DNA of 64,000 bases, taken from positions 478,539 through 542,538 of the forward strand of contig CM053250.1 of NCBI GenBank assembly GCA_028583405.1, written 5' to 3'. Under the pieces are notes generated by a model. That model ran no database searches, was not told where the DNA came from, and saw only the letters and a program-made list of their open reading frames with translations. Made by a program: the position numbers and the translations under genes. This document shows positions 3,214 through 36,964 of this stretch, piece after piece; the first letter of the stretch is position 1; each line of letters opens with the position of its first letter. The DNA comes from Pogonophryne albipinna. Taxonomy: Eukaryota; Chordata; Actinopteri; Perciformes; Artedidraconidae.

Positions 3214-3549
3214 CACTGAACAAAAATATAAACGCAACACTTTTGTTTTTGCTCCCATTTTTCATGAGATGAACTCAAAGATCTAAAACATTTTCTATAC
3301 ACACAAAATAACCATTTCTCTCAAATATTGTTCACAAATCTGAAAAAATCTGTGATAGTGAGCACTTCTCCTTTGCCGAGATAATCCATCCCACCTCACA
3401 GGTGTGGCATATCAAGATGCTGATTAGACAGCATGATTATTGCACAGGTGTGCCTTAGGCTGGCCACAATAAAAGGCCACTCTGAAACGTGCAGTTTTGC
3501 TTTATTGGGGGGGTCTGGGGGGGTCCGAAAACCAGTCAGTATCTGGTGT

Positions 3550-3581
3550 GAGGGGTAGGGGTAGGGTTAGGGTTAGGGTAA
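3550..3581 (+). repeat. Telomere-like TTAGGG block
   Basis: Three TAGGGT/TTAGGG units preceded by degenerate TAGGGG units, inside the Tc1 element on the 5' side of the transposase relic. Confidence 0.85.
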
Positions 3582-3599
3582 TGTTGTGAATCGAGTGGC

Positions 3600-3662
3600 C
3601 TGTGTTCGTCGTCCATTACATACGCCTGCCCATACCATAACCCCACCACCACCATGGGCCAC
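3600..3662 (-). pseudogene. Tc1 transposase relic
   Basis: Twenty-one codons on the minus strand read with the core GGGGVMVWAGVC, the conserved segment next to a catalytic aspartate of Tc1-family DDE transposases. Nothing else of the enzyme is present, so the piece cannot act alone. It is the only protein remnant inside the surrounding element. Confidence 0.75.
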
Positions 3663-3674
3663 TCAATTCACAAC

Positions 3675-3725
3675 ATTACCCTAACCCTAACCCTAACCCT
3701 ACCCCTACCCCTACCCCTACCCCTC
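3675..3725 (-). repeat. Telomere-like CCCTAA block, inverted partner
   Basis: CCCTAA units followed by CCCCTA units, the inverse of the block at 3550-3581, on the other side of the transposase relic. Confidence 0.85.
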
Positions 3726-4010
3726 ACACCAGATACTGACTGGCAAAAATGCACGTTTCAGAGTGGCCTTTTATTGTGGCCAGCCTAAGGCACACCTGTG
3801 CAATAATCATGCTGTCTAATCAGCATCTTGATATGCCACACCTGTGAGGTGGGATGGATTATCTCGGCAAAGGAGAAGTGCTCACTATCACAGATTCTTT
3901 CAGATTTGTGAATAATATTTGAGAGAAATGGTTATTTTGTGTGTATAGAACATGTTTTAGATCTTTGAGTTCATCTCATGAAAAATGGGAGCAAACATTT
4001 TTGTTCAGTG

Positions 4011-5620: not shown

Positions 5621-5806
5621 GGAGGCTGTGGCTCAGTGGTTAGTATGATGGACTTCGAATCGGGATAGCAAGTTCAAGTCCCACTGCAGTCTGCAGTCGT
5701 TGTGTCCCTAAGACACTTCACCTCAAATCGCTCCTGTGGGGACTTTCCACAGTACTGATGTATGCAAGTCACTTTGGATGAAAGCATCTAACAAACGACA
5801 TGTAAT
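5621..5806 (+). mobile_element. tRNA-derived SINE, left copy
   Basis: The tRNA-like head has an A box (TGGCTCAGTGG) and a B box (GTTCAAGTCCC). A tRNA-unrelated body follows, then the tail TTGGATGAAAGCATCTAACA ending ACATGTAAT, a tail type widespread in fish SINEs. The sub-family cannot be fixed by eye. The mirror copy is at 26644-26830. Confidence 0.75.
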
Positions 5807-8800
5807 ATACTGCAAAAAGTAAATTAATGAATTATCTGGACTTCAACTTATTTTCTCTGTTGTCGGATCAATGCTTAGCCTCTTTGCTTATCTTGAGGAC
5901 CTTTATATTTGCCTGAAATAGAAAAACTGACTGGAAATAAATAAATAAAAACTTTTTTTAGAAAGTGACGAGTTTTCATGATCATTCAACCTTTACAAAT
6001 GTACGTTTTTCTTATATTACGTTATGTGTGGGAGTCAAGGTTTATTTATGTTGTGCAGGTTCAGATGTCGACGTACACTGAACAAATCTCCATCTGTGAT
6101 GTGGGACCATGATAACTAGCAGGCCTCTTCGCTGTGAGCAGAAACAGGGACACAGCGGTGGAAAACACACAATCAGAGGAGTAAATGACAATCTGCTGCA
6201 CGACGAAACCAGAAATGAGCTGGCTGAAGAAAGAGAGAAAACGCTACCACATTCGGGGGCGACGCAGTCCCTCTCATGTAATGATCTCCAGTCAGAGACC
6301 ACTAAGGGGATCAGTTTCCTCCCTGGGCTTTAATGTGTGATACTCATCAGCCTCTCTGCCTCAAATAGAAACTGATGTGCTGGGTCTCTGCCTGTTTCTG
6401 GGGAAAGTGAGATTTTCAATTACCTCACATCAGCGGCGGCCAATCTTAATAGCTTCTTTCTTAATTCATGTTCACGTCGGCACCGAGGCGTTGCATCCAG
6501 GCGTTTCCCCCTCACCACGGGCTGCCGAATACAAGACTGGCACCACTTAGCTCCATCAGGACCCCCCTCCCATCCCTGCTAACCGCCCAGCTCCTGTGGA
6601 ATAAAGGTCAAGTAATCAGGCATCTGGAAGGACAGCTCATTTGTCATCTCTTGATAAATGCATCAGCGGCTAATCCGAAGAGCAGGACCCCGCCGCGACG
6701 CCCCCGAACAGAAAGGTTAACCGATTCAAAACAGGAAGCGATGGAGGACGACCGCGTAGGGAAGAATAAAACTTCATTTTGATTCAATTGTTTGGTGGCT
6801 ATTTCTGGACGGGTGGATTGTGGGAGGGCTCCGACAATAACCTCCACCCCCGCCGCTAAATGACAGCAGACTGCAGCGAACATTAACTGTGACAAGACAT
6901 TACCAGCGATGAGGCGTTAGTTTCACTGCGGGAAGGAAAAGCTGCTGCTGCCTCCATCTTCCCCCCCACTTCACTTCTTCTCCTGCCTCCTAACAGTTTC
7001 CCCCCCAATCTGCTGAAAGTCAACTTGACAAAACCAGAATAAAAAGTCATTTCTCTGACAAGGAAATGGAATCAAGCATAGATTTAATTGAAAAACAAAT
7101 AAATACATAATTATAGTATCAACATGGAAAGAACGTAATTTGAAAGACTCACAAGGTTCGTTAAAGTTCAGATTCAGATTAATTGCATAGGGCTGATCGT
7201 GAAAACATGTCCACTTATGTAGCTTGGAGGTTGTTGAAACTTTTGATGAAGGACACAGTCTTGAGAGCACTTTCAGATGCAACATCGGCAATGGTGACTG
7301 TAACTAAGTACCTTTACTCAAGGACAAAATGAAGGAAGGCTTACTTATACGCGTTATTCTCATTATATGCTACTTTATACTTTTACTACACTACATCTCA
7401 GAGGTACATATTAACTTTTTCACTTGAAGTACTTTCCAGGATACAGTTTTTCTATCCCCATCCCCTCCATGCGTCTCCAAATGTGTTGATCCTGAATGTT
7501 TGTGATAAACTAAACCGTAATACGATCATTTAGTCTATGTCTTGAGCAGGGACGTGCACAGGTACGGGCTAATGTTGCCCGGGCAACGGCCCTTTTGCCA
7601 TTTTTGCATGACCTGCCCCTCTGGAGAGAGACAGAGTTTTTTTGTTTTCTATTGTGGCCGAATCAACATGATAAGCCCACCATTAGTATTGTAGCGTCTC
7701 GCTGCGGGAAACACACCTTGTCCGCGCTGTCATCTGCCCCCAGTCACGTGACTTTGTTTACAATCTGACAGCTGGAAGCAAAGGAAAGCCCTCCGAGTCC
7801 AACCTCATATGGCTATGGTGATCACACCAAATGCCTGCCCTGGCTCCTGCCCGTTAGAGTATAGGGGACAAACCAGGGGACTTTACTTCCTCTTGACACC
7901 GTCGGTTAATTACAAAAAAACACCTAAATATACTTGTTATTGTGCTTCTGTCTTTCTGTGTCTTTCACTCTGCTCCGTAAACTCCCTCACCCTCACTCTC
8001 TTTTCTTGATCGCCCTCTCATGGAGAACACTTCACTGTCCCACTTTATTGTAGGATTTCTGCCATGCACTTTAGCTTGAACATCTCTGTTATTAAGTTAT
8101 GGAATTCTAAATAAATAAGTAATTAGATACCTTACCGTTACTACGCTCATAAAGAATGATAAGAATAATGCGTATTGAACTGGTTTAATTAATTAGTGAG
8201 TTTATTTAAGGTAATTATAGAAGCCCTATGTTATCAGTAGCCTATGTCTGCCCAGCAGTAACAACGGTAAAACTACATTAAAACAGAATTGCCCGCATTT
8301 TTTCTTTAATAGTTACTAACATTAGATATTTTAATGAGATATGGACCGCAAATAACGAATTTAGCAGTTGGACATAAAAGTCAACTGAGTGTCACTTGCA
8401 ATGACAGTGTTGTGTTTTTAATTTATGAGTCCCTGGTCTTGAGAGAATTGTTACATTTTTAAGCTATATAAACTCAGAATCAAAACACGTCTCGGATCAT
8501 CTTGAAAATGCATCGTCACAAAGATGAAAAACATCTGTGAAAAGTTGACTAAGGACAGACCGTCAAACATATGTCAGGAGGAGGAATTCGGGCAGGCATC
8601 CTGGGGGCGAGGCCGAGGCCGGAGACACGGGAGAAATCTGCGGTGATGGGACGGCTCCGGTGGACGGGAAGTAACACGATGGGTCAGCTGGACCACCGGA
8701 GCAGGAGCACCGGGAGCAGGAGTTGGCGGGACCAATGACTGAACAGAAGATGGTGTTGGCAAGACCCCCAACGGGAATTGAGTCTGCGGCACTCCAACAT

Positions 8801-8860
8801 CTAGGAAAATATATATCAATATATTGATAGTTATATTATATATAAACTAGCACAAAACAA
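5807..8860. other. Non-coding block with possible hAT end
   Basis: No supported gene. About 6040-6960 is moderately GC-rich and almost unchanged in the mirror arm (about 25500-26400). About 7550-7800 starts with GGGACGTGCACAGG and resembles the end of a hAT-like element, but no partner end was found. Short open frames at 7809-8009 and 8574-8819 (proline-rich, minus strand) carry no recognised domain. Confidence 0.4.
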
Positions 8861-8931
8861 GTGCCGCTAGTGTTGTGGTATCATGCAAGATTCCCATTCT
8901 TGTGACCCGGGTTCGATTCCCGGGCGGTGCA
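8861..8931 (+). tRNA. tRNA-Gly(CCC), outermost copy
   Basis: It has U2:G71, G3:U70 and A73. G26 with U44 looks older than the A26-U44 state of the other units. A14 is T, which damages the A box. An L2-type LINE tail sits 19 nt downstream. Confidence 0.7.
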
Positions 8932-8950
8932 TGCAAGACGGTCTGAATAT

Positions 8951-9235
8951 CAGACCATAGAGTCCGAGTCCCTCACTCTGTTCCAGTCCCGCCTCAAAAC
9001 CTATCTTTTCATCTCTCTCTATCTGTAAAACGACCTCCTCCTGACTGTTTTGTTTTGCTCTTGTTCTTGTTGACTTTCTTTCTTTGTTTTGTTTTGTTGT
9101 TTTTGTTGTTTTTCTTAGTCTGTTGTCTACCTGCCCCAGTCTATCTAACCCCCCCCCCCCTTCCCCCTCATATTGTAAAGCGTCTTTGGGTTCCATAAAA
9201 GCGCTATAAAAATCCAATTTATTATTATTATTATT
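8951..9235 (+). mobile_element. L2-type LINE 3' end inserted in a tRNA unit
   Basis: Contains the L2-like tail words AAAGCGTCTTTGGG and AAAAGCGCTATAAAAAT, followed by (ATT)n. It is flanked by a 6-bp target duplication GAATAT taken from the tRNA spacer. Only the 3' tail is present (5' truncated). Its presence in both arms shows that insertion preceded the split of the two copies. Confidence 0.75.
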
Positions 9236-9299
9236 GAATATGGGTTGAGTAGGGGACGGAAGAATAGAGAAAGATACAGAACTCTGAAATAGACGTTTG

Positions 9300-9371
9300 A
9301 AATCTCTTCCATCGGCAGAGTTTTGAGAGATTCCCATTCTTGTGACCAGGGTTCAATTCCCATGCAGTGTT
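9300..9371 (+). pseudogene. 3'-half tRNA-Gly relic (type example)
   Basis: Full-length array units carry a second tRNA-like piece: anticodon arm (GATTCCCATTCTTG), variable region and a T arm with GGTTCAATTCC, ending CATGCAGTG. The 5' acceptor strand and D arm are absent and the T stem has two mismatches, so it cannot fold as a tRNA. It starts directly after the T4 of the spacer. In later units it lies about 105-150 nt after each tRNA. Confidence 0.75.
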
Positions 9372-9478
9372 TGTATTAATCCAACTTCAAACAAAGAATT
9401 GTTTATTTAGTGTAGGTTTATGATTCTCACTTAGGTTGCGAGAGGTCCAGGGTCCAAATCAATACAAAAACAATACAA

Positions 9479-9549
9479 GTGCTGTTAGTGTAGTGGTATC
9501 ATACAAGATTCCCATTCTTGTGAACCGGGTTTGATTCCCATGCAGTGTT
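9479..9549 (+). pseudogene. Chimeric tRNA: tRNA 5' part fused to 3'-half relic
   Basis: 5' part from the tRNA and 3' end from the relic (TGCAGTG). The next tRNA starts 177 bp on instead of 326. The acceptor arm can still pair mainly through G-U pairs, but the T stem has two mismatches. Confidence 0.8.
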
Positions 9550-9655
9550 TGTATTAACCCAACTTCAAACAAAGAAGTGTTTATTTAGTGTAGGTTTATG
9601 ATTCTCACTTAGGTTGCGAGAGGTCCAGGGTCCAAATCAATACAAAACAATACAA

Positions 9656-9726
9656 GCGCTGCTAGTGTAGTGGTATCATACAAGATTCCCATTCTTGTGA
9701 CCCGTGTTCGATTCCCGGGCGGTGCA
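9656..9726 (+). tRNA. tRNA-Gly(CCC)
   Basis: C5T gives U5:G68. G52T breaks one T-stem pair and changes the B box. The mirror-arm partner (22781-22851) differs at several positions. Confidence 0.6.
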
Positions 9727-9981
9727 TGCAAGACTGTCTGAATATGGGTTGAGTAGGGGACGGAAGAATAGAGAAAGATACAGAACTCTGAAATAAATGT
9801 TTGAAAACTCTTCCATCGGCAGAGTTTTGAGAGATTCCCATTCTTGTGACCAGGGTTAAATTCCCATGCAGTGTTTGTATTAATCCAACTTCAAACAAAG
9901 AAGTGTTTATTTGGTGTACGTTTATGATTCTCACTTAGGTTGCGAGAGGTCCAGGGTCCAAATCAATACAAATCAATACAA

Positions 9982-10052
9982 GCGCCGCTAGTGTAGTGGT
10001 ATCATACAAGATTCCCATTCTTGTGACCCGGGTTCGATTCCCGGGCGGTGCA
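9982..10052 (+). tRNA. tRNA-Gly(CCC), array consensus
   Basis: Reference copy. 71 nt; acceptor GCGCCGC pairs with GCGGTGC, including G3:U70; discriminator A73. A box TAGTGTAGTGG and B box GGTTCGATTCC are intact. Anticodon stem CAAGA/TCTTG encloses loop TTCCCAT (anticodon CCC, reading GGG). T stem CCGGG/CCCGG. Nearest downstream T4 is at 10151-10154. Expected role: glycine insertion at GGG codons. Confidence 0.88.
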
Positions 10053-10307
10053 TGCAAGACGGTCTGAATATGGGTTGAGTAGGGGACGGAAGAATAGAGA
10101 AAGGTACAGAACTCTGAAATAGACATTTGAAATCTCTTCCATCAGCAGAGTTTTGAGAGATTCCCATTCTTGTGACCAGGGTTCAATTCCCATGCAGTGT
10201 TTGTATTAATCCAACTTCAAACAAAGAAGTGTTTATTTGGTGTAGGTTTATGATTCTCACTTAGGTTGCGAGAGGTCCAGGGTCCAAATCAATACAAATC
10301 AATACAA

Positions 10308-10378
10308 GTGCCGCTAGTGTAGTGGTATCATACAAGATTCCCATTCTTGTGACCTGGGTTCGATTCCCGGGCGGTGCA
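10308..10378 (+). tRNA. tRNA-Gly(CCC)
   Basis: C2T and C50T, both leaving U:G wobble pairs. Promoter boxes intact. Confidence 0.75.
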
Positions 10379-10623
10379 TGCATGACGGTCTGAATATGGG
10401 TTGAGTAGGGGATGGAAGAATAGAGAAAGATACAGAACTCTGAAATAGACGTTTGAAATCTCTTCCATCGGCAGAGTTTTGAGAGATTCCCATTCTTGTG
10501 ACCAGGGTTCAATTCCCATGCAGTGTTTGTATTAGTCCAACTTCAAACAAAGAAGTGTTTATTTGGTGTAGGTTTATGATTCTCACTTAGGTTGCGAGAG
10601 GTCCAGGGTCCAAATCAATACAA

Positions 10624-10694
10624 GCGCCGCTAGTGTAGTGGTGTCATACAAGATTCCCATTCTTGTGACCCAGGTTCGATTCCCGGGCGGTGCA
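10624..10694 (+). tRNA. tRNA-Gly(CCC)
   Basis: A-to-G change in the D loop (GGTGTC) and G51A, which gives one A-C mismatch in the T stem. Confidence 0.65.
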
Positions 10695-10949
10695 TGCAAG
10701 ACGGTCTGAAAATGGGTTGAGTAGGGGACGGAAGAATAGAGAAAGATACAGAACTCTGAAATAGACATTTGAAATCTCTTCCATCAGCAGAGTTTTGAGA
10801 GATTCCCATTCTTGTGACCAGGGTTCAATTCCCATGCAGTGTTTGTATTAATCCAACTTCAAACAAAGAAGTGTTTATTTGGTGTAGGTTTATGATTCTC
10901 ACTTAGGTTGCGAGAGGTCCAGGGTCCAAATCAATACAAATCAATACAA

Positions 10950-11020
10950 GCGCCGCTAGTGTAGTGGTATCATACAAGATTCCCATTCTTGTGACCCGGG
11001 TTCGATTCCCGGGCAGTGCA
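10950..11020 (+). tRNA. tRNA-Gly(CCC)
   Basis: G68A leaves a C5-A68 mismatch; otherwise consensus. Compare 12229-12299, where C5T restores the pair. Confidence 0.65.
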
Positions 11021-11275
11021 TGCATGACGGTCTGAATATGGGTTGAGTAGGGGACGGAAGAATAAAGAAAGATACAGAACTCTGAAATAGACATTTGAAA
11101 ACTCTTCCATCGGCAGAGTTTTTAGAGATTCCCATTCTTGTGACCAGGGTTCAATTCCAATGCAGTGTTTGTATTAATCCAACTTCAAACAAAGAAGTGT
11201 TTATTTAGTGTAGGTTTATGATTCTCACTTAGGTTGCGAGAGGTCCAGGGTCCAAATCAATACAAATCAATACAA

Positions 11276-11346
11276 GCGCCGCTAGTGTAGTGGTATCATA
11301 CAAGATTCCCATTCTTGTGACCCGGGTTCGATTCCCGGGTGGTGCA
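11276..11346 (+). tRNA. tRNA-Gly(CCC)
   Basis: C67T gives G6:U67, the only change from consensus. Confidence 0.78.
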
Positions 11347-11576
11347 TGCAAGACGGTCTGAATATGGGTAGAGTAGAGAAAGGTACAGAACTCTGAAATA
11401 GACGTTTGAAATCTCTTCCATCGGCAGAGTTTTGAGAGATTCCCATTCTTGTGACCAGGGTTCAATTCCCATGCAGTGTTTGTATTAGTCCAACTTCAAA
11501 CAAAGAAGTGTTTATTTGGTGTAGGTTTATGATTCTCACTTAGGTTGCGAGAGGTCCAGGGTCCAAATCAATACAA

Positions 11577-11647
11577 GTGCCGCTAGTGTAGTGGTGTCAT
11601 ACAAGATTCCCATTCTGGTGACCCAGGTTCGATTCCCGGGCGGTGCA
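11577..11647 (+). tRNA. tRNA-Gly(CCC), weakened
   Basis: C2T, D-loop A-to-G, T42G (A-G mismatch in the anticodon stem) and G51A. Probably decaying. Confidence 0.5.
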
Positions 11648-11902
11648 TGCAAGACGGTCTGAAAATGGGTTGAGTAGGGGATGGAAGAATAGAGAAAGAT
11701 ACAGAACTCTGAAATAGACGTTTGAAATCTCTTCCATCAGCAGAGTTTTGAGAGATTCCCATTCTTGTGACCAGGGTTCAATTCCCATGCAGTGTTTGTA
11801 TTAATCCAACTTCAAACAAAGAAGTGTTTATTTGGTGTAGGTTTATGATTCTCACTTAGGTTGCGAGAGGTCCAGGGTCCAAATCAATACAAATCAATAC
11901 AA

Positions 11903-11973
11903 GAGCCGCTAGTGTAGTGGTATCATACAAGATTCCCATTCTTGTGAGCCGGGTTCGATTCCCGGGCGGTGCA
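11903..11973 (+). tRNA. tRNA-Gly(CCC)
   Basis: C2A breaks pair 2-71; C48G in the variable loop. Confidence 0.55.
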
Positions 11974-12228
11974 TGCAAGACGGTCTGAATATGGGTTGAG
12001 TAGGGGACGGCAGAATAGAGAAAGGTACAGAACTCTGAAATAGACGTTTGAAATCTCTTCCATCGGCAGAGTTTTGAGAGATTCCCATTCTTGTGACCAG
12101 GGTTCAATTCCCATGCAGTGTTTGTATTAATCCAACTTCAAACAAAGAAGTGTTTATTTGGTGTAGGTTTATGATTCTCACTTAGGTTGCGAGAGGTCCA
12201 GGGTCCAAATCAATACAAAACAATACAA

Positions 12229-12299
12229 GCGCTGCTAGTGTAGTGGTATCATACAAGATTCCCATTCTTGTGACCCGGGTTCGATTCCCGGGCAGTGCA
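12229..12299 (+). tRNA. tRNA-Gly(CCC), compensated acceptor
   Basis: C5T together with G68A makes a U5-A68 pair, a two-sided compensatory change. Confidence 0.8.
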
Positions 12300-12553
12300 T
12301 GCATGACGGTCTGAATATGGGTTGAGTAGGGGACGGAAGAATAAGAAAGATACAGAACTCTGAAATAGACATTTGAAAACTCTTCCATCGGCAGAGTTTT
12401 TAGAGATTCCCATTCTTGTGACCAGGGTTCAATTCCAATGCAGTGTTTGTATTAATCCAACTTCAAACAAAGAAGTGTTTATTTAGTGTAGGTTTATGAT
12501 TCTCACTTAGGTTGCGAGAGGTCCAGGGTCCAAATCAATACAAATCAATACAA

Positions 12554-12624
12554 GCGCCGCTAGTGTAGTGGTATCATACAAGATTCCCATTCTTGTGACC
12601 CGGGTTCGATTCCCGGGTGGTGCA
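12554..12624 (+). tRNA. tRNA-Gly(CCC)
   Basis: C67T only (G6:U67); duplicate of the copy at 11276. Confidence 0.78.
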
Positions 12625-12854
12625 TGCAAGACGGTCTGAATATGGGTAGAGTAGAGAAAGGTACAGAACTCTGAAATAGACGTTTGAAATCTCTTCCATC
12701 GGCAGAGTTTTGAGAGATTCCCATTCTTGTGACCAGGGTTCAATTCCCATGCAGTGTTTGTATTAGTCCAACTTCAAACAAAGAAGTGTTTATTTGGTGT
12801 AGGTTTATGATTCTCACTTAGGTTGCGAGAGGTCCAGGGTCCAAATCAATACAA

Positions 12855-12925
12855 GTGCCGCTAGTGTAGTGGTGTCATACAAGATTCCCATTCTGGTGAC
12901 CCAGGTTCGATTCCCGGGCGGTGCA
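12855..12925 (+). tRNA. tRNA-Gly(CCC), weakened
   Basis: Same changes as 11577-11647, of which it is a block duplicate. Confidence 0.5.
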
Positions 12926-13180
12926 TGCAAGACGGTCTGAATATGGGTTGAGTAGGGGACGGAAGAATAGAGAAAGATACAGAACTCTGAAATAGACGTT
13001 TGAAATCTCTTCCATCAGCAGAGTTTTGAGAGATTCCCATTCTTGTGACCAGGGTTCAATTCCCATGCAGTGTTTGTATTAATCCAACTTCAAACAAAGA
13101 AGTGTTTATTTGGTGTAGGTTTATGATTCTCACTTAGGTTGCGAGAGGTCCAGGGTCCAAATCAATACAAATCAATACAA

Positions 13181-13251
13181 GCGCCGCTAGTGTAGTGGTA
13201 TCATACAAGATTCCCATTCTTGTGAGCCGGGTTCGATTCCCGGGCGGTGCA
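13181..13251 (+). tRNA. tRNA-Gly(CCC)
   Basis: C48G in the variable loop only. Confidence 0.78.
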
Positions 13252-13506
13252 TGCAAGACGGTCTGAATATGGGTTGAGTAGGGGACGGAAGAATAGAGAA
13301 AGGTACAGAACTCTGAAATAGACGTTTGAAATCTCTTCCATCGGCAGAGTTTTGAGAGATTCCCATTCTTGTGACCAGGGTTCAATTCCCATGCAGTGTT
13401 TGTATTAATCCAACTTCAAACAAAGAAGTGTTTATTTGGTGTAGGTTTATGATTCTCACTTAGGTTGCGAGAGGTCCAGGGTCCAAATCAATACAAAACA
13501 ATACAA

Positions 13507-13577
13507 GCGCTGCTAGTGTAGTGGTATCATCCAAGATTCCCATTCTTGTTACCCAGGTTCGATTCCCAGACGGTGCA
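13507..13577 (+). tRNA. tRNA-Gly(CCC), decayed
   Basis: C5T, A26C, G45T, G51A, G64A, G66A. Two T-stem mismatches and an open C7-A66 pair. Confidence 0.45.
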
Positions 13578-13832
13578 TGCAAGACAGTCTGAATATGGGT
13601 TGAGTAGGGGACGGAAGAATAGAGAAAGGTACAGAACTCTGAAATAGACATTTGAAATCTCTTCCATCAGCAGAGTTTTGAGAGATTCCCATTCTTGTGA
13701 CCAGGGTTCAATTCCCATGCAGTGTTTGTATTAATCCAACTTCAAACAAAGAAGTGTTTATTTGGTGTAGGTTTATGATTCTCACTTAGGTTGCGAGAGG
13801 TCCAGGGTCCAAATCAATACAAATCAATACAA

Positions 13833-13903
13833 GCGCCGCTAGTGTAGTGGTATCATACAAGATTCCCATTCTTGTGACCCGGGTTCGATTCCCGGGCGGT
13901 GCA
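13833..13903 (+). tRNA. tRNA-Gly(CCC), array consensus
   Basis: Exact match to 9982-10052. Confidence 0.88.
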
Positions 13904-14158
13904 TGCAAGACGGTCTGAAAATGGGTTGAGTAGTTGACGGAAGAATAGAGAAAGATACAGAACTCTGAAATAGACATTTGAAATCTCTTCCATCGGCAGA
14001 GTTTTGAGAGATTCCCATTCTTGTGACCAGGGTTCAATTCCCATGCAGTGTTTGTATTAATCCAACTTCAAACAAAGAAGTGTTTATTTGGTGTAGGTTT
14101 ATGATTCTCACTTAGGTTGCGAGAGGTCCAGGGTCCAAATCAATACAAATCAATACAA

Positions 14159-14229
14159 GCGCCGCTAATGTAGTGGTATCATACAAGATTCCCATTCTTG
14201 TGACCCGGGTTCGATTCCCGGGCGGTGCA
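14159..14229 (+). tRNA. tRNA-Gly(CCC)
   Basis: G10A, in the A box and D stem. The same change is seen in the other arm at 19107-19177. Confidence 0.65.
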
Positions 14230-14484
14230 TGCAAGACGGTCTGAATATGGGTTGAGTAGGGGACGGAAGAATAGAGAAAGATACAGAACTCTGAAATAGA
14301 TGTTTGAAATCTCTTCCATCGGCAGAGTTTTGAGAGATTCCCATTCTTGTGACCAGGGTTCAATTCCCATGCAGTGTTTGTATTAATGCAACTTCAAACA
14401 AAGAAATGTTTATTTGGTGTAGGTTTATGATTCTCACTTAGGTTGCGAGAGGTCCAGGGTCCAAATCATTACAAATCAATACAA

Positions 14485-14555
14485 GCGCCGCTAGTGTAGT
14501 GGTATCATACAAGATTCCCATTCTTGTGAGCCGGGTTCGATTCCCGGGCGGTGCA
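14485..14555 (+). tRNA. tRNA-Gly(CCC)
   Basis: C48G only. Confidence 0.78.
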
Positions 14556-14810
14556 TGCAAGACGGTCTGAATATGGGTTGAGTAGGGGACGGAAGAATAG
14601 AGAAAGGTACAGAACTCTGAAATAGATGTTTGAAATCTCTTCCATCGGCAGAGTTTTGAGAGATTCCCATTCTTGTGACCAGGGTTCAATTCCCATGCAG
14701 TGTTTGTATTAATCCAACTTCAAACAAAGAAGTGTTTATTTGGTGTAGGTTTATGATTCTCACTTAGGTTGCGAGAGGTCCAGGGTCCAAATCAATACAA
14801 AACAATACAA

Positions 14811-14881
14811 GCGCTGCTAGTGTAGTGGTATCATCCAAGATTCCCATTCTTGTTACCCAGGTTCGATTCCCAGGCGGTGCA
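14811..14881 (+). tRNA. tRNA-Gly(CCC), decayed T stem
   Basis: C5T, A26C, G45T, G51A and G64A; two adjacent T-stem mismatches. Confidence 0.45.
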
Positions 14882-15136
14882 TGCAAGACGGTCTGAATAT
14901 GGGTTGAGTAGGGGACGGAAGAATAGAGAAAGGTACAGAACTCTGAAATAGACATTTGAAATCTCTTCCATCAGCAGAGTTTTGAGAGATTCCCATTCTT
15001 GTGACCAGGGTTCAATTCCCATGCAGTGTTTGTATTAATCCAACTTCAAACAAAGAAGTGTTTATTTATTGTAGGTTTATGATTCTCACTTAGGTTGCGA
15101 GAGGTCCAGGGTCCAAATCAATACAAAACAATACAA

Positions 15137-15207
15137 GCGCTGCTAGTGTAGTGGTATCATACAAGATTCCCATTCTTGTGACCCGGGTTCGATTCCCGGA
15201 CGGTGCA
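15137..15207 (+). tRNA. tRNA-Gly(CCC)
   Basis: C5T (wobble) and G66A (C7-A66 mismatch). Confidence 0.6.
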
Positions 15208-15462
15208 TGCAAGACGGTCTGAATATGGGTTGAGTAGTGGACGGAAGAATAGAGAAAGGTACAGAACTCTGAAATATACATTTGAAATCTCTTCCATCAG
15301 CAGAGTTTTGAGAGATTCCCATTCTTGGGACCAGGGTTCAATTCCCATGCAGTGTTTGTATTAATCCAACTTCAAACAAAGAAGTGTTTATTTGGTGTAG
15401 GTTTATGATTCTCACCTAGGTTGCGAGAGGTCCAGGGTCCAAATCAATACAAATCAATACAA

Positions 15463-15533
15463 GCGCCGCTAGTGTAGTGGTATCATACAAGATTCCCATT
15501 CTTGTGACCCGGGTTCGATTCCCGGGCGGTGCA
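15463..15533 (+). tRNA. tRNA-Gly(CCC), array consensus
   Basis: Exact match to 9982-10052. Confidence 0.88.
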
Positions 15534-15788
15534 TGCAAGACGGTCTGAATATGGGTTGAGTAGGGGACGGAAGAATAGAGAAAGATACAGAACTCTGAAA
15601 TATACATTTGAAATCTCTTCCATCAGCAGAGTTTTGAGAGATTCCCATTCTTGTGACCAGGGTTCAATTCCCATGCAGTGTTTGTATTAATCCAACTTCA
15701 AACAAAGAAGTGTTTATTTGGTGTAGGTTTATGATTCTCACTTAGGTTGCGAGAGGTCCAGGGTCCAAATCAATACAAATCAATACAA

Positions 15789-15859
15789 GCGCCGCTAGTG
15801 TAGTGGTATCATACAAGATTCCCATTCTTGTGACCCGGGTTCGATTCCCGGGCGGTGCA
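15789..15859 (+). tRNA. tRNA-Gly(CCC), array consensus
   Basis: Exact match to 9982-10052. Confidence 0.88.
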
Positions 15860-16112
15860 TGCAAGACGGTCTGAATATGGGTTGAGTAGGGGACGGAAGA
15901 ATAGAGAAAGATACAGAACTCTGAAATAGACGTTGAAATCTCTTCCATCGCAGAGTTTTGAGAGATTCCCATTCTTGTGACCAGGGTTCAATTCCCATGC
16001 AGTGTTTGTATTAATCCAACTTCAAACAAAGAAGTGTTTATTTGGTGTAGGTTTATGATTCTCACTTAGGTTGCGAGAGGTCCAGGGTCCAAATCAATAC
16101 AAATCAATACAA

Positions 16113-16184
16113 GCGCCGCTAGTGTAGTGGTATCATACAAGATTCCCCATTCTTGTGACCCGGGTTCGATTCCCGGGCGGTGCA
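16113..16184 (+). tRNA. tRNA-Gly with 8-nt anticodon loop
   Basis: One extra C in the anticodon loop (TTCCCCAT). It lies within 320 bp of the gap where other single-base indels occur, so a sequencing error is more likely than a frameshift-suppressor tRNA. Confidence 0.45.
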
Positions 16185-16425
16185 TGCAATGACGGTCTGA
16201 ATATGGCTTGAGTAGGGGACGGAAGAATAGAGAAAGGTACAGAACTCTGAAATAGACGTTTGAAATCTCTTCCATCGTCAGAGTTTTGAGAGATTCCCAT
16301 TCTTGTGACCAGGGTTCAATTCCCATGCAGTGTTTTTATTAATCCAACTTCAACAAAGAAGTGTTTATTTGGTGTAGGTTTATGATTCTCACTTAGGTTG
16401 CGAGAGGGTCCAGGGTCCAAATCAA

Positions 16426-17425
16426 NNNNNNNNNNNNNNNNNNNNNNNNNNNNNNNNNNNNNNNNNNNNNNNNNNNNNNNNNNNNNNNNNNNNNNNNNNN
16501 NNNNNNNNNNNNNNNNNNNNNNNNNNNNNNNNNNNNNNNNNNNNNNNNNNNNNNNNNNNNNNNNNNNNNNNNNNNNNNNNNNNNNNNNNNNNNNNNNNNN
16601 NNNNNNNNNNNNNNNNNNNNNNNNNNNNNNNNNNNNNNNNNNNNNNNNNNNNNNNNNNNNNNNNNNNNNNNNNNNNNNNNNNNNNNNNNNNNNNNNNNNN
16701 NNNNNNNNNNNNNNNNNNNNNNNNNNNNNNNNNNNNNNNNNNNNNNNNNNNNNNNNNNNNNNNNNNNNNNNNNNNNNNNNNNNNNNNNNNNNNNNNNNNN
16801 NNNNNNNNNNNNNNNNNNNNNNNNNNNNNNNNNNNNNNNNNNNNNNNNNNNNNNNNNNNNNNNNNNNNNNNNNNNNNNNNNNNNNNNNNNNNNNNNNNNN
16901 NNNNNNNNNNNNNNNNNNNNNNNNNNNNNNNNNNNNNNNNNNNNNNNNNNNNNNNNNNNNNNNNNNNNNNNNNNNNNNNNNNNNNNNNNNNNNNNNNNNN
17001 NNNNNNNNNNNNNNNNNNNNNNNNNNNNNNNNNNNNNNNNNNNNNNNNNNNNNNNNNNNNNNNNNNNNNNNNNNNNNNNNNNNNNNNNNNNNNNNNNNNN
17101 NNNNNNNNNNNNNNNNNNNNNNNNNNNNNNNNNNNNNNNNNNNNNNNNNNNNNNNNNNNNNNNNNNNNNNNNNNNNNNNNNNNNNNNNNNNNNNNNNNNN
17201 NNNNNNNNNNNNNNNNNNNNNNNNNNNNNNNNNNNNNNNNNNNNNNNNNNNNNNNNNNNNNNNNNNNNNNNNNNNNNNNNNNNNNNNNNNNNNNNNNNNN
17301 NNNNNNNNNNNNNNNNNNNNNNNNNNNNNNNNNNNNNNNNNNNNNNNNNNNNNNNNNNNNNNNNNNNNNNNNNNNNNNNNNNNNNNNNNNNNNNNNNNNN
17401 NNNNNNNNNNNNNNNNNNNNNNNNN
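16426..17425. other. Assembly gap (1000 N)
   Basis: Exactly 1000 N at the centre of the inverted repeat, a conventional fixed-length scaffold gap, so the true distance and even the adjacency of the arms are unknown. Confidence 0.99.
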
Positions 17426-17498
17426 ACGTCTATTTCAGAGTTCTGTACCTTTCTCTATTCTTCCGTCCCCTACTCAACCCATATTCAGACGTCTTGCA

Positions 17499-17567
17499 TG
17501 CACCGCCGGAATCGAACCCGGCTCACAAGAATGGGAATCTTGTATGATACCACTACACTAGCGGCGC
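17499..17567 (-). tRNA. tRNA-Gly(CCC), 2-nt deletion
   Basis: C48G; two bases missing in the 3' T stem. Next to the gap, so a consensus error is likely. Confidence 0.45.
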
Positions 17568-17821
17568 TTGTATTGATTTGTAATGATTTGGACCCTGGAC
17601 CTCTCGCAACCTAAGTGAGAATCATAAACCTACACCAAATAAACATTTCTTTGTTTGAAGTTGCATTAATACAAACACTGCATGGGAATTGAACCCTGGT
17701 CACAAGAATGGGAATCTCTCAAAACTCTGCAGATGGAAGAGATTTCAAATGTCTATTTCAGAGTTCTGTATCTTTCTCTATTCTTCCGTCAACTACTCAA
17801 CCCATTTTCAGACGTCTTGCA

Positions 17822-17892
17822 TGCACCGCCCGGGAATCGAACCCGGGTCACAAGAATGGGAATCTTGTATGATACCACTACACTAGCGGCGC
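17822..17892 (-). tRNA. tRNA-Gly(CCC), array consensus
   Basis: Exact match to 9982-10052, on the opposite strand. Confidence 0.85.
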
Positions 17893-18146
17893 TTGTATTG
17901 ATTTGTATTGATTTGGACCTGGACCTCTCGCAACCTAAGTGAGAATCATAAACCTACACCAAATAAACACTTCTTTGTTTGAAGTTGGATTAATACAAAC
18001 ACTGCATGGGAATTGAACCCTGGTCACAAGAATGGGAATCTCTCAAAACTCTGCTGATGGAAGAGATTTGAAATGTCTATTTCAGAGTTCTGTACCTTTC
18101 TCTATTCTTCCATCCACTACTCAACCCATATTCAGACCGTCTTGCA

Positions 18147-18217
18147 TGCACCGTCCGGGAATCGAACCCGGGTCACAAGAATGGGAATCTTGTATGATAC
18201 CACTACACTAGCAGCGC
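18147..18217 (-). tRNA. tRNA-Gly(CCC)
   Basis: C5T and G66A, the same allele as 15137-15207. Confidence 0.6.
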
Positions 18218-18467
18218 TTGTATTGTTTTGTATTGATTTGGACCCTGGACCTCTCGCAACCTAAGTGAGAATCATAAACCTACAATAAAACACTTCTTTG
18301 TTTGAAGTTGGATTAATACAAACACTGCATGGGAATTGAACCCTGGTCACAAGAATGGAATCTCTCAAAACTCTGCTGATGGAAGAGATTTCAAATGTCT
18401 ATTTCAGAGTTCTGTACCTTTCTCTATTTCTCCGCCCCTACTCAACCCATATTCAGACCGTCTTGCA

Positions 18468-18535
18468 TGCACCGGGGAATCGAACCTGGGTAACAAGAAT
18501 GGGAATCTTGGATGATACCACTACACTAGCAGCGC
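18468..18535 (-). pseudogene. tRNA-Gly(CCC), 3-nt deletion
   Basis: Related to 14811-14881 but three bases shorter at the acceptor/T-stem junction. Confidence 0.5.
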
Positions 18536-18787
18536 TTGTATTGTTTTGTATTGATTTGGACCCTGGACTCTCGCAACCTAAGTGAGAATCATAAACCTAC
18601 CAAATAAACACTTCTTTGTTTGAAGTTGGATTAATACAAACACTGCATGGGAATTGAACCCTGGTCACAAGAATGGGAATCTTTCAAAACTCTGCCGATG
18701 GAAGAGATTTCAAACATCTATTTCAGAGTTCTGTACCTTTCTCTATTCTTCCGTCCCCTACTCAACCCATATTCAGACCGTCTTGCA

Positions 18788-18858
18788 TGCACCGCCCAGG
18801 AATCGAACCCGGCTCACAAGAATGGGAATCTTGTATGATACCACTACACTAGCGGCGC
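18788..18858 (-). tRNA. tRNA-Gly(CCC)
   Basis: C48G and C63T (G51:U63). Confidence 0.7.
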
Positions 18859-19106
18859 TTGTATTGATTTGTAATGATTTGGACCCTGGACCTCTCGCAA
18901 CCTAAGTGAGAATCATAAAACCACACAAATAAACATTTCTTGTTTGAAGTTGCATTAATACAAACACTGCATGGAATTGAACCCTGGTCACAAGAATGGG
19001 AATCTCTCAAAACTCTGCTGATGGAAGAGATTTCAAACATCTATTTCAGAGTTCTGTATCTTTCTCTATTCTTCCCATACTCAACCCATATTCAGACCAT
19101 CTTGCA

Positions 19107-19177
19107 TGCACCGCCCGGGAATCGAACCCGGGTCACAAGAATGGGAATCTTGTATGATACCACTACATTAGCGGCGC
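19107..19177 (-). tRNA. tRNA-Gly(CCC)
   Basis: G10A, the same allele as 14159-14229. Confidence 0.65.
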
Positions 19178-19429
19178 TGTATGATTTGTATTGATTTGGA
19201 CCCTGGACCTCTCGCAACCTAAGTGAGAATCATAAACCTACACCAAATAAACACTTCTTTGTTTGAAGTTGGATTAATACAAACACTGCATGGGAATTGA
19301 ACCCTGGTCACAAGAATGGGAATCTCTCAAAACTCTGCCGATGGAAGAGATTTCAAATGTCTATTCAGAGTTCTGTATGTTTCTCTATTCTTCCGTCAAC
19401 TACTCAACCCATTTTCAGACCGTCTTGCA

Positions 19430-19497
19430 TGCACGCCGGGAATCGAACCGGGTCACAAGAATGGGAATCTTGTATGATACCACTACACTAGCGGCGC
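19430..19497 (-). tRNA. tRNA-Gly(CCC), 3 nt short
   Basis: Single-base losses in the acceptor and both T-stem strands; probably consensus errors. Confidence 0.4.
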
Positions 19498-19603
19498 TTG
19501 TATTGATTTGTATTGATTTGGACCCTGGACCTCTCGCAACCTAAGTGAGAATCATAAACCTACACCAAATAAACACTTCTTTGTTTGAAGTTGGATTAAT
19601 ACA

Positions 19604-19674
19604 AACACTGCATGGGAATTGAACCCTGGTCACAAGAATGGGAATCTTGTATGATACCACTACACTAGCAGCGC
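19604..19674 (-). pseudogene. Chimeric tRNA / 3'-half fusion
   Basis: tRNA 5' part joined to the relic 3' end. No counterpart at the matching place in array 1. Confidence 0.75.
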
Positions 19675-19916
19675 TTGTTGTTTTTGTATTGATTTGGACC
19701 CTGGACCTCTCGCAACCTAAGTGAGAATCATAAACCTACATAAATAAACACTTCTTTGTTTGAAGTTGGACTAATACAAACACTGCATGGGAATTGAACC
19801 CTGGTCACAAGAATGGGAATCTCTCAAAACTCTGCCGATGGAAGAGATTTCAAACGTCTATTTCAGAGTTCTGTATTTCTCTTTCTCTACTCTACCCATA
19901 TTCAGACCGTCTTGCA

Positions 19917-19983
19917 TGCACCCCTGGGAATCGAACCCTGGTCACAAGAATGGGAATCTTGTATGATACCACTACCTAGGCGC
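19917..19983 (-). pseudogene. tRNA-Gly(CCC), disrupted
   Basis: Several small deletions in the acceptor and D arm, in the low-quality zone. Confidence 0.45.
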
Positions 19984-20234
19984 TTGTATGATTTGTATTG
20001 ATTTGGACCCTGGACCTCTCGCAACCTAAGTGAGAATCATAAACCTACACCAAATAAACACTTCTTTGTTTGAAGTTGGATTAATACAAACACTGCATTG
20101 GAATTGAACCCTGGTCACAAGAATGGGAATCTCAAAACTCTGCCGATGGAAGAGTTTTCAAACGTCTATTTCAGAGTTCTGTATCTTTCTTATTCTTCCG
20201 TCCCCTACTCAACCCATATTCAGACCGTCATGCA

Positions 20235-20304
20235 TGCACGCCCGGGAATCGAACCCGGCTCACAAGAATGGGAATCTTGTATGATACCACTACACTAGCA
20301 GCGC
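20235..20304 (-). tRNA. tRNA-Gly(CCC), 1 nt short
   Basis: C5T, C48G, and one base missing in the 3' acceptor strand. Confidence 0.45.
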
Positions 20305-20554
20305 TTGTATTGTTTTGTATTGATTTGGACCCTGGACCTCTCGCAACCTAAGTGAGAATCATAAACCTACACCAAATAAACACTTCTTTGTTTGAAGTTG
20401 GATTAATACAAACACTGCATGGGAATTGAACCCTGGTCACAAGAATGGGAATCTCTCAAAACTCTGCTGATGAGATTTCAAACGTCTATTTCAGAGTTCT
20501 GTACCTTTCTCTATTCTGCCGTCCCCTACTCAACCCATTTCAGACCGTCTTGCA

Positions 20555-20621
20555 TGCACCGCCCGGGAATCGAACCGGTCACAGAATGGGAATCTTGTAT
20601 GATACCACTACACTAGCGGCA
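20555..20621 (-). pseudogene. tRNA-Gly(CCC), disrupted
   Basis: Bases missing at the 5' end, in the T stem and in the anticodon stem; low-quality zone. Confidence 0.4.
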
Positions 20622-20848
20622 TTGTATTGATTTGGACCCTGGACCTCTCGCAACCTAAGTGAGAATCATAAACCTACACCAAATAAACACTTCTTTGTTT
20701 GAAGTTGGAATACAAACACTGCATGGGAATTGAACCCTGGTCACAAGAATGGGAATCTCTCAAAACTCTGCTGATGGAAGAGATTTCAAACGTCTATTTC
20801 AGAGTTCTGTATTTGTCTATTCTACCCACATTTTCAGACCGTCTTGCA

Positions 20849-20920
20849 TGCACCACCCGGGAATCGAACCTGGGTCACCAAGAATGGGAATCTTGTATGA
20901 TACCACTACACTAGCGGCGC
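20849..20920 (-). tRNA. tRNA-Gly(CCC), 1-nt insertion
   Basis: C67T and G51A with an extra base at the anticodon-stem/variable junction. Confidence 0.45.
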
Positions 20921-21166
20921 TGTATGATTTATTGATTTGGACCCTGGACCTCTCGCAACCTAATTGAGAATCATAAACCTACAAATAAACACTTCTTTGT
21001 TTGAAGTTGGACTAATACAAACACTGCATTGGAATTGAACCCTGGTCACAAGAATGGGAATCTCTCAAAACTCTGCCGATGGAAGAGTTTTCAAACGTCT
21101 ATTTCAGAGTTCTGTATCTTTCTCTATTCTTCTCCCCTACTCAACCCATATTCAGACCGTCATGCA

Positions 21167-21237
21167 TGCACTGCCCGGGAATCGAACCCGGGTCACAAGA
21201 ATGGGAATCTTGTATGATACCACTACACTAGCGGCGC
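21167..21237 (-). tRNA. tRNA-Gly(CCC)
   Basis: G68A (C5-A68 mismatch), as at 10950-11020. Confidence 0.6.
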
Positions 21238-21488
21238 TTGTATTGATTTGTATTGATTTGGACCCTGGACCTCTCGCAACCTAAGTGAGAATCATAAACC
21301 TACACAAATAAACACTTCTTTGTTTGAAGTTGGATTAATACAAACACTGCATGGAATTGAACCCTGGTCACAAGAATGGGAATCTCTCAAAACTCTGCGA
21401 TGGAAGAGTTTTCAAACTTCTATTTCAGAGTTCTGTATTTTCTCTATTCTTCCGTCATCTACTCAACCCATATTCAGACCGTCTTGCA

Positions 21489-21559
21489 TTCACCACCCGG
21501 GAATTGAACCCGGGTCACAAGAATGGGAATCTTGTATGATACCACTACACTAGCGGCGC
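21489..21559 (-). tRNA. tRNA-Gly(CCC)
   Basis: C67T, G57A, and position 72 C to A, which opens the first acceptor pair. Confidence 0.5.
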
Positions 21560-21814
21560 TTGTATTGTTTTGTATTGATTTGGACCCTGGACCTCTCGCA
21601 ACCTAAGTGAGAATCATAAACCTACACCAAATAAACACTTCTTTGTTTGAAGTTGGATTAATACAAACACTGCATGGGAATTGAACCCTGGTCACAAGAA
21701 TGGGAATCTCTCAAAACTCTGCTGATGGAAGAGATTTCAAATGTCTATTTCAGAGTTCTGTATCTTTCTCTATTCTTCCGTCCCCTACTCAACCCATTTT
21801 CAGACCGTCTTGCA

Positions 21815-21885
21815 TGCACCGCCCGGGAATCGAACCTGGGTCACAAGAATGGGAATCTTGTATGACACCACTACACTAGCGGCGC
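21815..21885 (-). tRNA. tRNA-Gly(CCC)
   Basis: D-loop change and G51A; mirror of 10624-10694. Confidence 0.65.
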
Positions 21886-22129
21886 TTGTATTGATTTGGA
21901 CCCTGGACCTCTCGCAACCTAAGTGAGAATCATAAACCTACACCAAATAAACACTTCTTTGTTGAAGTTGGACTAATACAAACACTGCATGGGAATTGAA
22001 CCCTGGTCACAAGAATGGGAATCTCTCAAAACTCTGCCGATGGAAGAGATTTCAAACGTCTATTTCAGAGTTCTGTATCTTTCTCTATTCTTCCATCCCC
22101 TACTCAACCCATATTCAGACCGTCATGCA

Positions 22130-22200
22130 TGCACCGCCCGGGAATCGAACCCAGGTCACAAGAATGGGAATCTTGTATGATACCACTACACTAGCGGCAC
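22130..22200 (-). tRNA. tRNA-Gly(CCC)
   Basis: C2T and C50T; mirror of 10308-10378. Confidence 0.72.
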
Positions 22201-22455
22201 TTGTATTGATTTGTATTGATTTGGACCCTGGACCTCTCGCAACCTAAGTGAGAATCATAAACCTACACCAAATAAACACTTCTTTGTTTGAAGTTGGATT
22301 AATACAAACACTGCATGGGAATTGAACCCTGGTCACAAGAATGGGAATCTCTCAAAACTCTGCTGATGGAAGAGATTTCAAATGTCTATTTCAGAGTTCT
22401 GTACCTTTCTCTATTCTTCCGTCCCCTACTCAACCCATATTCAGACCGTCTTGCA

Positions 22456-22526
22456 TGCACCGCCCGGGAATCGAACCCGGGTCACAAGAATGGGAATCTT
22501 GTATGATACCACTACACTAGCGGCGC
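22456..22526 (-). tRNA. tRNA-Gly(CCC), array consensus
   Basis: Exact consensus; mirror of 9982-10052. Confidence 0.87.
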
Positions 22527-22780
22527 TTGTATTGATTTGTATTGATTTGGACCCTGGACCTCTCGCAACCTAAGTGAGAATCATAAACCTACACCAAATA
22601 AACACTTCTTTGTTTGAAGTTGGATTAATACAAACACTGCATGGGAATTTAACCCTGGTCACAAGAATGGGAATCTCTCAAAACTCTGCCGATGGAAGAG
22701 TTTTCAAACATTTATTTCAGAGTTCTGTATCTTTCTCTATTCTTCCGTCCCTACTCAACCCATATTCAGACAGTCTTGCA

Positions 22781-22851
22781 TGCACCGCCCGGGAATTGAA
22801 CCCGGGTCACAAGAATGGGAATCTTGTATGATACCACTACACTAGCGGTGC
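22781..22851 (-). tRNA. tRNA-Gly(CCC) with A3-U70
   Basis: G3A turns G3:U70 into a normal A3-U70 pair. G57A is also present; B box GGTTCAATTCC. It is the one copy seen that loses the alanine-type wobble. Confidence 0.75.
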
Positions 22852-22957
22852 TTGTATTGATTTGGATTGATTTGGACCCTGGACCTCTCGCAACCTAAGT
22901 GAGAATCATAAACCTACACTAAATAAACACTTCTTTGTTTGAAGTTGGGTTAATACA

Positions 22958-23028
22958 AACACTGCATGGGAATCAAACCCGGTTCACAAGAATGGGAATC
23001 TTGTATGATACCACTACACTAACAGCAC
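22958..23028 (-). pseudogene. Chimeric tRNA, mirror of 9479-9549
   Basis: The same fusion of tRNA 5' part and relic 3' end as in array 1, so it predates the separation of the two arms. Confidence 0.8.
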
Positions 23029-23271
23029 TTGTATTGTTTTTGTATTGATTTGGACCCTGGACCTCTCGCAACCTAAGTGAGAATCATAAACCTACACTAA
23101 ATAAACAATTCTTTGTTTGAAGTTGGATTAATACAAACACTGCATGGGAATTGAACCCTGGTCACAAGAATGGGAATCTCTCAAAACTCTGCCGATGGAA
23201 GAGATTTCAAACGTCTATTTCAGAGTTCTGTATCTTTCTCTATTCTTCCGTCCCCTACTCAACCCATATTC

Positions 23272-23556
23272 AATAATAATAATAATAAATTGGATTTTTA
23301 TAGCGCTTTTATGGAACCCAAAGACGCTTTACAATATGAGGGGGAAGGGGGGGGGGGTTAGATAGACTGGGGCAGGTAGACAACAGACTAAGAAAAACAA
23401 CAAAACAACAAAACAAAACAAAGAAAGAAAGTCAACAAGAACAAGAGCAAAACAAAACAGTCAGGAGGAGGTCGTTTTACAGATAGAGAGAGATGAAAAG
23501 ATAGGTTTTGAGGCGGGACTGGAACAGAGTGAGGGACTCGGACTCTATGCTGTCTG
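23272..23556 (-). mobile_element. L2-type LINE 3' end, right copy
   Basis: Mirror of 8951-9235, starting at the (AAT)n tail and flanked by ATATTC on both sides (inverse of GAATAT). Confidence 0.75.
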
Positions 23557-23574
23557 ATATTCAACCGTCTTGCA

Positions 23575-23645
23575 TGCACCGCCCGGGAATCGAACCCGGG
23601 TCACAAGAATGGGAATCTTGCATGATACCACAACACTAGCGGCAC
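23575..23645 (-). tRNA. tRNA-Gly(CCC), outermost copy
   Basis: Mirror of 8861-8931, with the same C2T, A14T and G26. Confidence 0.68.
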
Positions 23646-36958: not shown

Positions 36959-36964
36959 GGGGAG

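Follow-up and report, generated by a model that had tools for sequence, protein, structure and literature searches.

Satellite-like tRNA-Gly(CCC) arrays of Pogonophryne albipinna carry the alanine identity pair G3:U70, probably by descent from one founder gene

Glycine transfer RNA (tRNA) genes that bear the alanine identity pair G3:U70 raise the question of how such a pair comes to stand in copy after copy of a gene family, and whether the products would be read as glycine, as alanine or not at all. The family considered here lies in a 64,000-nt stretch of the genome of Pogonophryne albipinna (assembly GCA_028583405.1, contig CM053250.1, positions 478,539 to 542,538, forward strand; below, the window), where tRNA-Gly(CCC) sequences are arranged in tandem arrays. 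Two points have to be addressed: (i) does the pair reflect one event or many and (ii) would an array tRNA be expected to reach translation. From the pattern of substitutions across the copies, we consider it probable that one founder tRNA-Gly(CCC) gained U70 by CpG decay and underwent satellite-like amplification, yielding copies that are now mostly decaying.

Across the whole window ARAGORN identifies 81 tRNAs; positions 8861–23645, the segment covered by a preliminary description of this locus, hold 40 of them. Exactly 71 nt is the length of 62 of the 81 (32 within that segment), and the position counts given below refer to these 62, leaving out the 19 copies of other lengths. In cloverleaf numbering the 3′ strand of the acceptor stem (66–72) reads GCGGTGC, placing G3 opposite U70 and followed by A73. 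The features expected of an alanyl-tRNA synthetase (AlaRS) substrate are nearly universal: G3, and with it the G3:U70 pair, is found in 61 of 62 copies, and U70 and A73 are present in all of them (31, 32 and 32 of the 32 copies in 8861–23645). When the remaining 19 copies are aligned to the human tRNA, all 19 have T in the position-70 column, with indels adjoining it in some, and a regular-expression count that takes in both full copies and half-tRNA relics finds T70 in 146 of 156 3′ ends, the remaining 10 being unparseable. The arrays and the copies needed for the argument are as follows.

8861..16184, forward strand: array A1, 23 ARAGORN copies, most of them in units of 326 bp; 21 have the 71-nt length, all with G3:U70 and A73
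17496..23645, reverse strand: array A2, 17 copies, inverted with respect to A1; 11 are 71 nt long, 10 with G3:U70 and one with A3-U70
52107..63894, forward strand: array A3, 41 copies, beyond the segment described earlier; 30 are 71 nt long, all with G3:U70 and A73
22781..22851, reverse strand: the sole A3-U70 copy among those of 71 nt, with G3 changed to A; top Rfam score of the window, 63.8 bits
9982..10052, forward strand: example of the majority sequence, shared by 10 identical copies; cloverleaf complete, boxes A and B intact
10053..10154, forward strand: example of the 3′ trailer; the first run of four T (T4) is TTTT at 10151–10154, 98 nt past the tRNA
10158..10204, forward strand: example of the half-tRNA relic, running from the anticodon arm to the 3′ end without the 5′ half; part of the 326-bp unit

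The G3-to-A change at 22781–22851 restores a Watson–Crick pair with U70, and the earlier identification of this copy as the only one of its kind stands among the 71-nt copies. The companion statement, that nearly all copies pair GCGCCGC with GCGGTGC, survives for G3:U70 and A73 but not for the stem as a whole, which is exact in only 13 of 32 copies in the segment and 23 of 62 in the window. G3:U70 is the only acceptor wobble in 36 copies; another 25 contain an additional acceptor G-U pair, most commonly U5-G68 or U2-G71, and the copy with adenine at position 3 has no wobble. The full set G1, C2, G3, U70, G71, C72 and A73 occurs in 47 of 62 copies, and the anticodon is CCC in 59. The feature extends past the range of the preliminary description into array A3, which adds 41 ARAGORN copies.

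The organization of the arrays is that of a satellite-like tandem repeat, with near-identical units placed head-to-tail. The main unit, 326 bp long, combines a single full tRNA and its trailer of some 100 nt with a half-tRNA relic and a leader, and tandem-repeat rows of this period reach 21.4 copies at 92–96% matches (79% in one overlapping row). A BLAST comparison of the consensus tRNA with the window returns 158 matches, of which 84 cover nearly the whole tRNA and 74 only part of it. Among the partial matches, 62 cover residues 28–61 exactly, corresponding to the relic; the Rfam tRNA model gives 82 matches at or above its gathering score. Shorter units of 175–178 bp hold a degenerate full-length form of the tRNA. 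Array A3 contains an internal duplication with a shift of about 6.39 kb and 98.4% identity over 3.9 kb, and one A1 copy, at 16113, has an extra C in the anticodon loop.

Because the copies form one family, G3:U70 represents one ancestral substitution rather than 61 independent ones. We considered counting the 61 copies as independent evidence and rejected this, given a single family with internal duplication and inverted arms. Every one of the 146 3′ ends that could be parsed has U70, those of the relics among them, which places the origin of U70 before the split between full tRNA and relic.

The nearest verified printed sequence is human tRNA-Gly-CCC-2-1, as given in PMC12217144, which differs from the array consensus at four of 71 positions: G to A at 9 and 26, and C to T at 44 and 70. 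In the human tRNA G3 pairs with C70, which is part of a CpG; the most economical account of U70 is therefore decay of this CpG ahead of the amplification. Both position 44 and position 70 belong to CpGs in this human sequence and are T in 62 of 62 array copies, whereas its other six CpG dinucleotides are intact in 42–53 of the 62. This pattern is consistent with the loss of two CpGs in the founder and with ongoing CpG decay among its descendants. The suggestion made earlier that C70T could be CpG decay fixed before amplification is thus the better-supported origin, in view of positions 44 and 70, the relics and the ongoing loss of CpG. Exact scans for the conserved middle of tRNA-Gly(CCC) in a viral and a genome contig collection, neither of them a collection of animal genomes, gave no match in either.

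In the scheme we favor, C70 of a founder tRNA-Gly(CCC) would have been converted to U by decay of a methylated C70-G71 CpG, with G3 retained; the C70 ancestor and the methylation of the founder CpG are both presumed. The founder gene would then have been amplified into satellite-like tandem arrays, and since it already carried U70 and G3, the pair would have been fixed by descent. Most copies would now be drifting, their CpGs disappearing roughly as fast as those of the trailer, and a subset retains an intact cloverleaf and CCC anticodon along with boxes A and B and the alanine acceptor pair. If a mature product were made, known biochemistry leads us to expect that it would be chargeable by AlaRS as well as by glycyl-tRNA synthetase (GlyRS). 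Most likely, little or no array tRNA enters translation.

Evidence on decay comes from a parsimony tree of 69 long units (of 80 anchor hits, three were discarded because of N or their length, and eight of the remaining 77, mostly of the short type, failed the filter). CpG decay accounts for 68 of 125 differences from the consensus, at 12 CpG sites among the 71 positions. On the tree, the 12 CpG sites of the tRNA average 4.33 steps each and the eight of the trailer 4.62, and the corresponding values are 2.50 and 2.38 in array A3 and 3.33 and 3.88 in A1 and A3 combined. At non-CpG sites the tRNA has 0.49 steps per site versus 0.67 outside it (permutation p 0.15), and in the subsets A1 plus A3, A3 and A1, for which no permutation test was made, the tRNA rate is close to the rates of trailer and 5′ flank. 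Of all parts of the unit the half-tRNA relic changes least (0.24 steps per site), less even than the full tRNA, though it is unable to give rise to a tRNA; gene conversion between the two may be the cause.

The same 62 copies were scored for features needed for expression. No stem pair is broken in 34 copies and at least one is broken in 28 (20 pairs checked); the unbroken stems, the CCC anticodon of 59 copies and Rfam tRNA scores of up to 63.8 bits agree with a complete tRNA-Gly(CCC) cloverleaf. RNAfold assigns the consensus −28.0 kcal/mol and a changed D arm, the value for human Gly-CCC-2-1 being −33.3 kcal/mol. The first 70 nt downstream contain no T4 run in any of the 62 copies; the nearest one lies 74–99 nt away in all of them. 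The lack of a close RNA polymerase III (Pol III) terminator of four or more T weakens the case for functional genes but does not exclude it. Non-canonical termination exists. According to PMC5356446, four T are enough for termination by human Pol III and read-through is common in human cells, which makes transcripts with a 100-nt trailer conceivable. Taken together, the absence of a near terminator and CpG decay in the tRNA at about the trailer rate lean against a maintained function.

Several results weigh against the reading of a mostly decaying family. Strict matches to the consensus patterns of box A and box B occur in 57 and 51 of the 62 copies, and in 46 both are present; 21 copies, representing nine distinct sequences, pass every competence test applied. 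In array A1 by itself the tRNA has fewer CpG steps per site than the trailer (0.92 versus 1.50, from 11 and 12 steps), and since the 5′ flank offers just two CpG sites with one step, the comparison of CpG loss depends on the trailer. The raw frequency of non-CpG cell differences is 0.013 in the tRNA and 0.033–0.039 elsewhere in the unit, or about one-third, which could indicate constraint, although the parsimony count gives no confirmation. The C70 ancestor is deduced from a single outgroup sequence, that of human. In zebrafish, moreover, tRNA isodecoders of the egg and early embryo come from highly repetitive regions, according to PMC11417395. Repetitiveness is therefore no proof of silence, and an expressed array retains a low probability on this account. 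The lower raw difference rate was also considered as proof of selection and rejected, given the parsimony p of 0.15 and the still slower relic; we give the tree count more weight than the raw counts because the copies share descent.

What would a mature array tRNA be charged with? Table 1 and the text of PMC9976931 describe G3-U70 as the eukaryotic alanine determinant, whose transplantation makes other tRNAs accept alanine, and together with PMC7337962 they agree with the earlier designation of G3:U70 as the main alanine identity element. In the latter report, tRNA-Thr given G3:U70 is charged by AlaRS, and an amber version produced alanine in 19 of 21 readthrough peptides. Because a transplanted G3:U70 confers alanine charging in these systems, alanylation of any mature array tRNA is likely. 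On the glycine side, the eukaryotic identity set listed in Table 1 of PMC9976931 includes G1-C72, C2-G71, G3-C70, A73, C35 and C36, and the array departs from it in that G3-C70 is missing in 62 of 62 copies. This set is not strict, however, since human tRNA-Gly genes with U70 exist: in Gly-CCC-1-1 and Gly-GCC-1-5, according to Table 1 of PMC6779403, a single substitution at position 3 is enough to produce G3:U70, and U70 must then be native to both. The preliminary description had given C70 for human tRNA-Gly(CCC), which is correct for Gly-CCC-2-1 as printed in PMC12217144 but not for Gly-CCC-1-1. With U70 normal in vertebrate tRNA-Gly to the extent of these tabulated genes, the unusual point is the combination of G3 with U70, and GlyRS probably accepts the array tRNA because the two human tRNAs must have U70. 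Dual charging with glycine and alanine is thus a fair prediction for any mature array product, in a ratio that is not predictable from sequence.

Four copies of array A3 (forward strand; 53338–53407, 55800–55870, 56854–56924 and 59725–59795) have the tryptophan anticodon CCA through a C36-to-A change. The three of 71 nt also have G43 changed to T, breaking pair 27-43, and the 53338 copy lacks one base at that place. The 55800 copy, with U5-G68, G1-C72 and A73, fits the C34/C35/A36 row of Table 1 in PMC9976931, taken as that of tryptophan, and retains G3:U70. Its RNAfold structure is not a cloverleaf.

The charging argument bears on the possibility that some copies are transcribed as ordinary glycine tRNAs, with GlyRS taking U70 and reading C35 and C36 and with charging by AlaRS either negligible or cleared. 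We think this unlikely. An editor of Ala-tRNA-Gly is not known to us, no search having been aimed at one, which counts against clearance. The CCC anticodon of 59 copies and the U70 that other human tRNA-Gly genes must have (PMC6779403, Table 1) fit such a role, but the G3-C70 pair of the glycine set in Table 1 of PMC9976931 has been lost, and the transplantation results in that source and in PMC7337962 suggest that AlaRS would charge the tRNA.

It is distinctly unlikely, in our estimate, that the arrays are active, for example in the tRNA supply of the oocyte or early embryo, and that their tRNA-Gly is charged with both glycine and alanine, making GGG ambiguous in that stage. The charging of G3:U70 tRNA-Thr by AlaRS and the alanine in its readthrough peptides (PMC7337962), as well as the 21 apparently competent copies, are what such activity would draw on. 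Opposed to it are the lack of a near Pol III terminator in all 62 copies and the similar CpG decay of tRNA and trailer; GlyRS could also outcompete AlaRS. In addition, the tRNA-Thr with G3:U70 and its natural anticodon gave no substitution, a result that the authors of PMC7337962 ascribe to editing by threonyl-tRNA synthetase (ThrRS). The boldest form of this idea is very improbable: transcription of at least the competent copies of a multi-copy G3:U70 tRNA-Gly(CCC) family, possibly in the oocyte, would make GGG partly an alanine codon at that stage, through a tRNA fixed in the germline rather than through a rare variant.

We also give little credence to the arrays being kept for a non-translational role, for instance as a source of tRNA fragments or as sites that bind TFIIIC, to which the acceptor pair would be irrelevant. 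The frequent strict boxes A and B and the slow change of the relic are in keeping with such a role, but gene conversion between tRNA and relic may explain the slow change of both.

The wider surroundings bear on how the copies are to be counted, and the relevant features are as follows.

561..12915, forward strand: left arm of an inverted repeat; mate at 19614–31818, pieces 97.1–99.7% identical
16426..17425, no strand: gap of 1000 N between A1 and A2, at the center of the inverted repeat
50802..51801, no strand: gap of 1000 N immediately 5′ of A3

Identity of the arms by piece is 97.1% for 561–4905, 98.7% for 4935–7382 and 99.7% for 7415–8800, with 93.3% for the outermost piece (1–1309), and of 17 distinct tRNA sequences found in one arm, eight are also present in the other. 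Since 561–12915 and 31818–19614 are arms of an inverted repeat, some copies within 8861–23645 may be counted twice. The repeat may be a genuine palindrome or the product of a head-to-head join between two haplotypes. That G3:U70 itself is an artefact of assembly or of a collapsed repeat consensus is hardly credible: the two gaps and the inverted repeat around one of them mark a difficult assembly in which copy number may be inflated, but U70 is uniform across three arrays and the relics while neighbouring sites vary, which neither base-calling error nor collapse explains.

Other repeats are found in the window. A 19-bp minisatellite lies on both arms of the inverted repeat (561–1310 and 31061–32756, with 39.5 and 88.5 copies), and the long open frames in it look like a by-product of the repeat. 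Short telomere-like runs of the ACCCTA/GGGTTA type are mirrored in both arms (3678–3724 and 28659–28702). Further long tandem repeats are located at 36964–39312 (34-bp, GATGGATG-type), 41117–43933 (33-bp) and 45190–45454 (perfect CA, 132.5 copies). A 264-aa open frame on the reverse strand at 49104–49898 might be a real exon; a Pfam scan of it gave no match, and it may resemble a BRPF1-type protein.

Returning to a founder with U70 and its amplification, the preliminary interpretation as a whole is partly supported, and the mischarging idea is already in print for human tRNA-Gly variants. PMC6779403 lists six human tRNA-Gly G3:U70 alleles with frequencies from 0.012 to 0.215, for which its authors predict alanine at glycine codons, and states that G3:U70 occurs exclusively in tRNA-Ala. 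These variants resemble the array in being tRNA-Gly, including CCC anticodons, with G3:U70; they differ as polymorphic alleles that arise through position 3, whereas here a whole array shares the pair and the change appears to have been at position 70. What is new relative to that report is only the fixation of the pair in an array. According to a 2024 review (PMC11415595), which gives three references, misacylation is possible for tRNA-Gly(CCC) and tRNA-Gly(GCC) mutants that bear G3:U70. Among the matches listed from the open-access literature, none reports a tRNA-Gly array in which G3:U70 is fixed, and the array's own 5′ and 3′ ends, GCGCCGCTAGTGTAGTGG and TTCCCGGGCGGTGCA, have no occurrence in the open-access full text searched. 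One of the review's three references, a mammalian-cell study that we know by its title and by citing mentions, reportedly concerns mistranslation of glycine codons with alanine, and those mentions do not speak of an array.

A natural parallel is provided by vertebrate tRNA-Thr with G4:U69, described in PMC7337962 and PMC7302879, a non-alanine tRNA with a G-U pair in the acceptor stem that AlaRS charges. There the pair is at G4:U69, conserved in vertebrates and in an expressed tRNA, and the product is cleared by ThrRS and ATD. Large tRNA clusters are also familiar in teleosts, with 50 and more members, and clustered genes and pseudogenes make up 87% of those in stickleback and 65% in zebrafish (PMC2888827, PMC11417395); in the portions of these papers that were available, neither a tRNA-Gly(CCC) array nor G3:U70 is described. 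The available part of a paper on anticodon shifts (PMC3923123) likewise contains nothing on G3:U70 or fish.

For genome scans the locus is a caution, as counts of ‘identity-switched’ tRNAs can reflect one mutation multiplied by satellite-like amplification. A tRNA-Gly array fixed for G3:U70 also offers a natural test case: either silence is needed for it to be tolerated, or vertebrates tolerate coded glycine/alanine ambiguity.

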